From: Bacteriovoracaceae bacterium
GTDB lineage: Bacteria > Bdellovibrionota > Bacteriovoracia > Bacteriovoracales > Bacteriovoracaceae
Length of the DNA: 37,237 bases
Assembly (NCBI GenBank): GCA_016784965.1
Contig: JADHTQ010000045.1
Coordinates: 1 to 37,237 of the forward strand
Reading direction: 5' to 3'
The position numbers were made by a program, and so were the translations under genes. Of the stretch, positions 19,392 to 23,399 are shown one piece after another (position 1 is the stretch's first letter; every line of letters starts with the position of its first letter). The notes below the pieces were generated by a model, which worked only from the letters and a program-made list of their open reading frames with translations, was not told the origin of the DNA and did not search any database.

Positions 19392-22157
19392 TTACTGGTT
19401 CTCATAATAATCGTCTTCTTCTAAAAGCACTGTTACGTTTCCATCTTGCTCATATTTACTACTAATTTCTTCTGTGCTCATAGTGCCTGGTTCGGTATCT
19501 TCGATGAAAGATTCTGTGAATGCTCCATGTATTTCTTCTGTGGCAAGCTTTCCGGTGATCTTATCTATTAAGACATTAATGATACCTGCAGGAATTGAAA
19601 AATCATATTCCCCATATTTTTTTAATCCCTGTCTCATGAACTCCTTCCAAATTGGTAGTGCCGCTTTTGCACCAGTCTCACCCCACCCTAAAGTTTTGTT
19701 ATCATCCAAGCCGGTCCAAACTCCAGTAACTAAGTTACTTGAAAAGCCAATGAACCAGGCATCGACGTAATTATTAGTAGTTCCGGTTTTCCCTCCTAGA
19801 AAATGGCTAACATCTAGTGCTCTTCTACCAGTGCCGTGATGGACAACCCCCTTTAATAAATTTGTCATGAGGTATGCAAGCCTGGGGTCATAAACCTGAC
19901 TGCCTCCAAGGGCCACGTGATAGGGATTGATTTCTTTTTGTACAGCTTCCTCCTCCATCACGGAGTTTTGTTTTGGCTGCATTAATTCATTGATTGCAAG
20001 TTTTTGGGTGCCTTCGTCTAATTCTCCAAGACGACTTTCGGGGGAGTTTTGCTGCTTTATATTTTTGTCATTAATGTTATACATGTTTCCATCCCGATCG
20101 GTGATTGAGATGATAGATTTTTGATTCACCAACTTCCCTCCATTGGGGAAGATGGCATAAGTTGCAACAATATCCATTAATGTGACACCAAATGAGCCCA
20201 GGGATAGGCTTAAATCATGCTCTAGTTCCGCGTTAAGGCCAATTCTGTCAACAAAATCTAAAATGGTACCCACTCCAAGTTCAGCGGCCAATTTTATAGT
20301 GGGAACGTTGCGACTTTTCTCTAAGGAGTTTCTAAAGGTCATGGGACCTTTAAATTTACCGTCATAGTTTGCAGGCTTCCAATTGAGGCCATCTCCCACT
20401 CCACCTAGACTTTCAGGAGAGTCAATTAGAATTGATGCAGGTGTGTACCCATTCTCTAGACCTGCGGCATACAAAATGGGCTTAAAAGAAGAGCCTGGTT
20501 GCCTCTTTGATTGGATTGCTCGATTGAATTGAGTTTTAGAGAAATTAGTTCCGCCAACTAGAGATATGACTTCTCCGGTTTTTGGATGAATAGTAATTAA
20601 CGCTGCTTGAACATCTGGCTCTTGGTCTAGCATACATAATAAATATCTTTCTTCTTTGAGTTTTTTGTAAACATCCTTAGTCTTAAATTTCTCTCTAAAG
20701 TTTTTATTTAAATGACGGCCAATTGACGTTTTAAGTCTTTCAATACGAACAAGAACTACATCTCCTCGTTTTAAAATACTAGACGGCCTTTGCACATATG
20801 AATAATAATTTTTTTTGCTTGAAATATTCCTTTCATGTGCCCATCTGTAGAACTCATAAGGGATGATGCCTATAATGCCCCCAATTGAGACATAGGCGAC
20901 TCTTGCCCAATCATCTACCTTGATGACCACGGCTTTATAGTTTTTCTCTTTTTCAATGTGCTCAAAAAATGTATCTTTTTTATAAATGCCTGGACGAAAT
21001 CTTTTATTTTTAATTTCTGTCATCCATTCTTTTTTGTATTCTTGTAACTCATTAAATTTTTCTTCATTAAATTCTAATTCATACGACCTGGATAAATTTT
21101 CATCGATGGTAAAATAAAGTGATTTTTCCCTGTACATTGCTTTTCGAAATTCTATTTCAAAATTTGTTATTTCCTCGTCGTTATTTAGATGACTAAGTGG
21201 TCCTTTGTAGCCTTGGCGTTTATCAATTTCCTTTGCGCCATTGTAAACTAACTTCTCTGCATGCTTTTGCATTTCCCAATCTAATGTAGTTACAACCTTA
21301 AACCCTTCAGTTAAAAATCTATCTTTTCCAACCAGATCAATCACTTTTTGCCTGATCCAGTCAGTGAAGTACCCAGCTTGAAATACTGATTTTTTTCTAA
21401 TTCGATACTGTAATTTTGTGTCTAATGCCTCTTGGTATTGAGATCGTGTGATTTTGTTAGTTGCAAGCATTCTGTTTAAAACATATCGCTGTCTTTTTTT
21501 TGCATACTCTGGGTTAATGTATGGGGAGTATCTTCCCGGCGCGACTAGTAAGCCCGCTATCATCGAACTCTCTGCTATGGTTGCTTCGATTAACTCTTTA
21601 TTAAAGTAACCAGCAAATGCATTTTTAATACCGTAGTGACCACCTCCTAAGTAAACTTGATTTAAGTAGAGGTATAAAATTTCTTGTTTGGAAAATTTTT
21701 CTTCAATTCTTTGTGCCAATAAAAAGTCTTTAATTTTTCTAATAACAGATCGTTTATTAGTAAGAAGTAGTGATTTGGCTACCTGCTGGGTAATAGTACT
21801 TCCGCCTTGAACAATTTTGCCCGCTTTGATGTCGGCCAACAGAGCACGCATAATGCCGATGTAGTCAACACCTTTATGCTCATAAAAGCGATCATCTTCA
21901 GCTGCTAAAAATGCATCGATGATAACTTGGGGAATTTGATCAAATGCAACCACCTCCCTTTTTTCTAATGCAAAGTCGGCCAAAACAATGCCGTCTTTAG
22001 AGAGAATTTGGGATGTAATGGGTGGTTTATAATCAGCTAAGGTTGAAATTTTAGGTAGATCGAAGGAAAAATACACTAAGACCCCGACACCAGTAAGTAC
22101 AGACAGTACGCCTAGGCTTATAGTAACTAATAAGGATGTAAAAAGGATCTTTTTCAT
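19392..22157 (-). CDS. mrcA: Penicillin-binding protein 1A, bifunctional (921 aa)
   Basis: This class A PBP polymerises glycan strands and cross-links peptides. An N-terminal membrane anchor (residues 5-30) is followed by the GT51 transglycosylase domain: AAEDDRFYEH with catalytic Glu87, GGSTITQQVAKSLLL at 118, and the YLNQVYLGGGHYG motif. A Lys/Glu-rich insert of about 200 residues separates it from the transpeptidase domain, at the position of the OB-like domain of Gram-negative PBP1A. Transpeptidase motifs are SSFK (Ser556), SRN (615-617) and KTGTT (790). The C-terminal tail is acidic. The start overlaps the stop of the upstream patatin-like lipoprotein gene by 4 bases, so translation is coupled. 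The likely upstream cofactor gene and xseB form one operon with it. Confidence 0.95.
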   Translation of the reverse strand: MKKILFTSLLVTISLGVLSVLTGVGVLVYFSFDLPKISTLADYKPPITSQILSKDGIVLADFALEKREVVAFDQIPQVIIDAFLAAEDDRFYEHKGVDYIGIMRALLADIKAGKIVQGGSTITQQVAKSLLLTNKRSVIRKIKDFLLAQRIEEKFSKQEILYLYLNQVYLGGGHYGIKNAFAGYFNKELIEATIAESSMIAGLLVAPGRYSPYINPEYAKKRQRYVLNRMLATNKITRSQYQEALDTKLQYRIRKKSVFQAGYFTDWIRQKVIDLVGKDRFLTEGFKVVTTLDWEMQKHAEKLVYNGAKEIDKRQGYKGPLSHLNNDEEITNFEIEFRKAMYREKSLYFTIDENLSRSYELEFNEEKFNELQEYKKEWMTEIKNKRFRPGIYKKDTFFEHIEKEKNYKAVVIKVDDWARVAYVSIGGIIGIIPYEFYRWAHERNISSKKNYYSYVQRPSSILKRGDVVLVRIERLKTSIGRHLNKNFREKFKTKDVYKKLKEERYLLCMLDQEPDVQAALITIHPKTGEVISLVGGTNFSKTQFNRAIQSKRQPGSSFKPILYAAGLENGYTPASILIDSPESLGGVGDGLNWKPANYDGKFKGPMTFRNSLEKSRNVPTIKLAAELGVGTILDFVDRIGLNAELEHDLSLSLGSFGVTLMDIVATYAIFPNGGKLVNQKSIISITDRDGNMYNINDKNIKQQNSPESRLGELDEGTQKLAINELMQPKQNSVMEEEAVQKEINPYHVALGGSQVYDPRLAYLMTNLLKGVVHHGTGRRALDVSHFLGGKTGTTNNYVDAWFIGFSSNLVTGVWTGLDDNKTLGWGETGAKAALPIWKEFMRQGLKKYGEYDFSIPAGIINVLIDKITGKLATEEIHGAFTESFIEDTEPGTMSTEEISSKYEQDGNVTVLLEEDDYYENQ

Positions 22158-23200
22158 TGACCAGTTTTCCCTTGATTCTTAAGTTGATCTAATTTGGATA
22201 ATTTCCAGTTGTTAATCAGTTCTTTGATTTGACCAGTGATAATCTGAGCATTTTCCATACTTTGTTGTAGAAATGTTGGATAGTTTTTTAATGAGTCCAA
22301 TTTATTTGTTCCGGCCATGGTAAACAGTCTGTCAAGAGTGCCCTTTTGTGTTTGCACCCGAGTTGCTATTTTATTGAAAACATCGAATAATTTATAATTA
22401 CCAGTCTTAAAGTCGATGGATTCTCCCAGTACATCAATTCCAATTACAATATCAGCACCAAATTTATAAAAGGGTCCAGAATTGAAAATTTCCCATTGGA
22501 ACGGAGTAGAGAATCTATGTTTATCATCTGGCTTAGATAAAAGCAAGTTGGAGCTAAGGGCACTATCTAGAGCACCTCTTGTAAGATAGCGAACTTTTTT
22601 GGGCCCATTGTCGTACACTGGAATGATTAAACTTAAGTTGGTGCTTTGTATCGATTTTTTATAGAAGTACCTAGTGATTAGTTTTTGAACATCCTCAATC
22701 CAACTTTTAGAATAAGGTTTTTTTTCATCAATTTTTTTAAACAAGCGATAAAAATCCCACTCTATTTTGGAAGTAGTAATTCCCGAGGCGTACATTGCTG
22801 CCACTAACGATCCCATGCCAACACCAGATATCACTTGTATTTTGATATTATTTTTTTCCATCTCCTTTAACAACTGTGTATGAGCACCAATTCGATTGAT
22901 ACCCGGACCTAACAATAATGCCACAACGGGAACCAGACTGCTACGTTTGGGCCTGTTGTGAGTTTTGTACTCACTGGTTGTTGGACCATACTCATTAGTG
23001 TCGATTGTTTTAACTTGGATTTTGGGAACTTTGGAGTATTTTTGATTATGCTTTCTAGAAAAATTATTAAGTAAATCAACACCTGCGGGACCTGCTCCCT
23101 GTTTTCTTTGTTTGATCTGCTCTGATGTTAAAAAGGAACAAGATGCTATCAAAATACAAAATGTGCTGATAGAAATCAGTTTGCTAAAATTCAATTTCAT
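22154..23200 (-). CDS. Patatin-like lipoprotein, predicted catalytically inactive
   Basis: The 348-aa product has a lipoprotein signal peptide (lipobox IASC, Cys21). Residues 95-140 follow the patatin pattern: [20 protein letters not shown], then [17 protein letters not shown]. In active patatins the second motif is GxSxG; here the Ser position is Gly128 (codon GGC). The usual catalytic DGG/DGA motif near the end of the domain reads FNSG (about 239-242), so the Asp is lost too. Downstream, [10 protein letters not shown] matches the family. Both dyad members appear absent, so lipase activity is unlikely. The gene sits between xseB (17-base overlap) and PBP1A (4-base overlap). A role as a PBP1A-associated envelope lipoprotein is inference from context. 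Confidence 0.85.
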
Positions 23201-23399
23201 TTTCTTTTAAATCATCGGTTAAAGTTGTTATTTTTTTTTCTGCAACAGATAGTTGTTTTTTACAATCTCGGTATAGACTCACACCTGCTTCAAACTTCTT
23301 GATGCTCTCTTCTAGGCTTAGCCCACCAGTTTCAAGCCCACTTACAATACTTTCTAATTCCTTTAAAGATTGCTCAAATGATTTATTTTTTTTTGTCAT
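23184..23399 (-). CDS. xseB: Exodeoxyribonuclease VII small subunit
   Basis: The 71-aa helical protein matches Xse[21 protein letters not shown] followed by [20 protein letters not shown] and a Lys-rich end. With the large subunit XseA (not in this window) it degrades single-stranded DNA into oligonucleotides. It is the first gene of a unit with the patatin-like lipoprotein and PBP1A; its last 17 bases overlap the lipoprotein gene, unless that gene starts slightly later. The joint operon with envelope genes looks like a matter of convenience rather than shared function. Confidence 0.92.

Follow-up and report, generated by a model that had tools for sequence, protein, structure and literature searches.

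On its minus strand, the window (the whole stretch of 37,237 nucleotides that was analysed) carries a patatin-like gene between xseB and a gene for a PBP1A-family penicillin-binding protein. xseB shares 17 bases with the patatin-like gene, which in turn overlaps PBP1A in an ATGA, so that all three are strung together by overlaps. The genes and features are as follows.

23184..23399, minus strand: xseB, exonuclease VII small subunit (ORF; the counterpart at locus L091 matches PF02609)
22154..23200, minus strand: predicted patatin-fold pseudoenzyme lipoprotein of 348 aa (ORF with ATG start; Pfam Patatin; AlphaFold2 model; fold match to PlpD)
23138..23149, minus strand: lipobox IASC (I18-A19-S20-C21), with Cys21 predicted to be acylated and Ser at +2 (sequence; homologue alignment)
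22946..23137, minus strand: predicted flexible tether, residues 22-85 (model confidence, mostly pLDDT <50; family tether lengths)
22892..22909, minus strand: former oxyanion segment G98-P99-G100-I-N-R103, where GPGxxR replaces GGGxxR/K (alignment)
22811..22825, minus strand: GVGMG, residues 126-130, putatively dead nucleophile elbow with Gly128 at the catalytic Ser position (alignment to PlpD and about 135 relatives)
22757..22762, minus strand: family-specific E147-W148 after the elbow helix (Trp counts in homologues)
22475..22486, minus strand: FNSG, residues 239-242, at the position of DGG/DGA in active patatins (alignment)
22295..22297, minus strand: Asp302, kept in 72 of the 80 linked homologues of the order (conservation)
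22154..22157, minus strand: ATGA, stop of the patatin-like gene overlapping the PBP1A start (sequence)
19392..22157, minus strand: PBP1A-family class A penicillin-binding protein, 921 aa (TIGR02074; Transgly and Transpeptidase domains)

PBP1A matches TIGR02074 with 580.8 bits, above the cut-off. The lipobox, a 10-residue oxyanion-like segment (residues 98-107), GVGMG, FNSG and a well-kept 10-residue segment after it (residues 247-256) were all found where the initial annotation had placed them, as was its 4-base overlap with PBP1A. That annotation had also read the altered motifs as divergence and not as a misread frame, and we agree. Homologues were present in 88 of the 129 genomes searched in the host's order, and dN/dS was 0.04-0.18 in the four close pairs that allowed its calculation, of which some had saturated dS. 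Hence, the ORF is neither a chance ORF nor a misread frame, and the low ratios point to strong purifying selection in these pairs.

Fold and catalytic residues

The patatin-like protein matched Pfam Patatin (PF01734) with an E-value of 2e-8 and 35.1 bits (cut-off 27.7), over just the first 70 of the 191 profile positions, i.e. the N-terminal part. The same profile matched 23 of 24 family members. No other Pfam family matched at E-values up to 1, and neither LpoA (PF04348) nor LpoB (PF13036) was among the matches. The AlphaFold2 model, calculated from 17 sequences (the window and named loci), had a mean pLDDT of 81 and a core above 90; residues 30-81 were below 50, indicating disorder, and the domain starts at about residue 90. 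Foldseek returned PlpD as the top match of the model (E 1e-11), VIA-align superimposed the two with a Z score of 23.4 over 230 residues at 17% identity, and a sequence-profile alignment placed Gly128 onto the catalytic Ser of PlpD's GTSMG. The fold proposed in the initial annotation is thus independently supported, and we are confident that the modelled domain is a patatin domain.

The family search covered the Bdellovibrionota. A single-sequence scan of the named contigs gave no matches; a profile recovered 16 loci of the Bacteriovorax/Bacteriovoracaceae type (also with Bdellovibrionales titles). Within the order, 80 extracted homologues lie directly upstream of PBP1A on the same strand, each in a different genome. 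A phylum-wide profile search with inspection of the flanks added 27 PBP1A-linked copies in other families (f20, f21, f23, f24, f26 and f27 among our own family labels f1-f29) and 20 unlinked copies. Co-occurrence with PBP1A is therefore widespread outside the host genome.

The residue at position 128 was Gly in 65, Glu in 11, Asp in two and Ser in two of the 80 linked homologues of the order. In the 27 linked homologues of other families it was Glu (26) or Asp (1), and across all 47 homologues outside the order, linked and unlinked, Glu (44), Gly (2) or Asp (1). Thus, only two of the 107 linked homologues have Ser at the nucleophile position; both are short and divergent and have no DGG. An intact GxSxG together with DGG occurred in none of the 107, and DGG or DGA nowhere in the linked family. 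The alignments indicate that no linked member keeps the Ser/Asp dyad, so that the loss of the dyad noted in the initial annotation is shared by the linked relatives.

Trp148 is new and nearly invariant. It was present in 76 of the 80 linked homologues of the order, in 27/27 linked copies of other families and in 20/20 unlinked copies, and absent from all eight intact patatins compared. The eight homologues of the order without PBP1A nearby are ordinary patatins that keep GTSxG and DGG, and a paralogue in the window's own genome has GSSAG and DGE. In the tree, a fully supported branch sets the intact patatins apart, and the linked or unlinked state changes only about twice.

A protein with these replacements might still be an enzyme that uses other residues. 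Its fold is complete, the former pocket is conserved in part, and most of the phylum keeps Glu where the Ser was. However, the conservation check revealed no conserved Ser, Thr or Cys as a replacement nucleophile, conserved polar residues come down to little more than E147 and D302 (D302 within the order only), and the glycine-rich oxyanion loop has changed to GPG. As judged from conservation, no other Ser/Asp pair is placed for catalysis, and we consider continued catalysis very improbable.

The gene might instead be a relic on its way to loss, since about four lineages have lost it and in some genera the copies are highly divergent and short, at 235-260 aa (L079, L080, L082 and L088). Yet close pairs appear to be under strong purifying selection, Trp148 and the lipid anchor are nearly invariant phylum-wide, and the frames are open nearly throughout, which makes a relic even less probable. 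Two of the short copies, of 237-243 aa (L079:4905-5618 and L082:4665-5396), adjoin PBP1A and have GKSFG or GESFG at the nucleophile position and no Asp motif. Judged on the family-wide loss of the dyad, the near invariance of Trp148, the separate position of intact patatins in the tree and the low dN/dS, this is a long-lived pseudoenzyme family and not a decaying gene.

Lipid anchor and predicted location

The lipobox Cys aligned in 79 of the 80 linked homologues of the order and in 47/47 others (126/127 in total). In E. coli, the Lol rule directs lipoproteins with a +2 residue other than Asp to the outer membrane. None of 126 members has Asp at +2, so that an outer-membrane location is predicted from this rule. 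The tether before the domain has a family median of 52-58 aa.

The dyad loss and the lipoprotein signal give good support to the initial annotation's pseudo-enzyme and envelope lipoprotein. It is very likely that the family is a conserved, phylum-wide dead patatin lipoprotein of the Bdellovibrionota with a predicted outer-membrane location. Literature searches, which took in few subscription papers, found no published description of it.

Gene neighbourhood and candidate partners

Within the order, the gene belongs to a conserved block, flgG-flgF / xseB - patatin - PBP1A - TonB-like - gcvH, which is about equally kept throughout. Adjacency to PBP1A is therefore unspecific evidence for a partnership with PBP1A. 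In the host genome, PBP1A is followed by rpoZ on the opposite strand, and the TonB-like gene that usually follows PBP1A in relatives lies on a different contig (G000:C90:8719-9582).

The dead patatin could have an envelope job of its own, such as binding lipid or other lipoproteins, and neighbour PBP1A merely through an inherited block (xseA-xseB-ispA-tlyA-patatin-PBP1A-TonB). Conservation of the block as a whole is consistent with this. Furthermore, in Bdellovibrio-type genomes (f3, assigned by our reading of those genomes) the dead patatin lies behind tlyA and away from PBP1A, so that it is parted from PBP1A and not from tlyA/xseB; in G138, the sole genome of this type checked, the distance to PBP1A is about 33 kb. 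The patatin-like gene is gone from 25 sampled genomes, spread over about four lineages, in which a full-length PBP1A comes straight after xseB. We count about four independent losses, at least two of them required by branches with strong support, and losses that leave PBP1A intact also fit an independent job. In L212-L237 (e.g. L216 and L221), which come from several genera, the gap between xseB and PBP1A is often about 55-60 bases, i.e. a precise loss of the patatin-like gene.

Rate covariation gave PBP1A no preference as a partner, which is also compatible with an independent job: the patatin-like protein covaried weakly with it (partial r of +0.13 to +0.26), no more than with controls. Three observations argue against a purely inherited neighbourhood. 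Firstly, xseB, ispA and tlyA have cytoplasmic functions, which leaves PBP1A and the TonB-like protein as the sole envelope neighbours. Secondly, seven families keep the dead patatin and PBP1A side by side, and the stop of the one often overlaps the start of the other; a spacing of exactly -4 occurs in 17 of the 80 linked loci of the order and in 18/27 outside it. Thirdly, the window has the xseB/patatin/PBP1A neighbourhood without the TonB-like gene, which has moved away, yet retains the pair. On balance, an independent envelope job is a credible explanation, to which we give appreciably less than an even chance.

Another candidate partner is the TonB-like inner-membrane protein encoded after PBP1A, with which the dead patatin would bridge the inner and outer membranes. 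This protein was the top partner in the first rate-covariation test (partial r 0.39-0.54), and in L165 (L165:3889-5759) a TonB-like gene directly follows that of the dead-patatin lipoprotein, without an intervening PBP1A. However, the signal dropped to 0.34-0.42 once the fast flagellar controls flgA and flgH were added, and flgA scored the same, so that the covariation is unspecific. Co-loss of the TonB-like gene with the patatin-like gene was rejected as well, because TonB-like proteins persist in the lineages that lost the latter. We regard this pairing as improbable.

The genomes also encode relatives of known activators. The LpoB family (PF13036) is present in 118 of the 129 genomes of the order, including the window's own, where one such lipoprotein (G000:C40:14536-14955; L243:2881-3513) lies among envelope-type genes. 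PBP1B with a UB2H domain gave weak matches in 25/129 genomes and none in the host genome. Canonical LpoA, considered as an incumbent PBP1A activator, was rejected, with weak PF04348 matches in 24/129 genomes of the order and none in the host. LpoA-like lipoproteins with TPR and a periplasmic-binding fold do occur in some genomes of the order. Two lipoproteins of about 670 aa (L207:1144-3162 and L208:1078-3072) may represent a divergent LpoA in genomes of the Bacteriovoracaceae type. In L207, a TPR-like N-terminus precedes a fold match to Peripla_BP_6 and a marginal match to LppC (LpoA). With the LpoB family nearly universal in the order and LpoA-like lipoproteins in part of the genomes, the pseudoenzyme is not the only candidate for an activator role.

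Proposed role and comparison with known systems

The protein has lost its catalytic residues and yet has been kept for very long, so it probably has a non-enzymatic job in the envelope. Our preferred reading is that of a tethered outer-membrane lipoprotein that would act in the periplasm by binding, not by catalysis. Anchored in the outer membrane, it would span the peptidoglycan and contact partners in the inner membrane, of which PBP1A is the most likely, by analogy with the action of LpoB and LpoP, of unrelated folds, on PBP1B. We give this explanation as a whole a probability of about 50%. Its specific element, that the dead patatin is a regulator or adaptor of PBP1A, has slightly less than even odds. 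The initial annotation had suggested a pseudo-enzyme recruited as a PBP1A partner; the pseudo-enzyme stands, and the partnership is plausible but unproven.

A more far-reaching and rather doubtful idea is that the family represents a new fold class of outer-membrane PBP1A regulator in the Bdellovibrionota. A phospholipase would have lost catalysis before the phylum split, and its dead lipid pocket, with Glu or Gly for Ser and a new Trp, could detect or bind a lipid of the outer membrane and act as a gate for PBP1A.

On present evidence, naming these proteins patatin-like phospholipases from profile matches is wrong. If the link to PBP1A is true, class A PBPs would have one more kind of outer-membrane partner, again with an unrelated fold, and this in a predatory phylum that remodels the walls of its prey as well as its own. 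The genera that lost the patatin-like gene beside an intact PBP1A offer a natural comparison.

The closest solved structure is the patatin domain of PlpD from Pseudomonas aeruginosa (PDB 5FQU/5FYA), which shares the fold. PlpD has GTSMG, whereas the lipoprotein has GVGMG, no DGG, and in addition a lipid anchor and a tether. Its N-terminal part can be aligned with RssA-type patatins (NCBIfam NF007623) at 22.9 bits, far below the 272-bit cut-off. The intact patatin paralogues of these genomes differ in keeping Ser and Asp and in having no lipobox. In its predicted layout, the dead patatin matches LpoP and LpoB, with an outer-membrane-type signal, a long disordered tether and then a globular domain (PMC7267771). 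The domains of LpoP (tandem TPR) and LpoB are unrelated to patatin, however, and their partner is PBP1B, contacted via UB2H, and not PBP1A; activation has been demonstrated for them, whereas the dead patatin is a candidate activator. LpoA is a lipoprotein that activates PBP1A, and thus acts on the same synthase family as proposed here, but it combines TPR with a periplasmic-binding-protein fold and has no similarity to the dead patatin.
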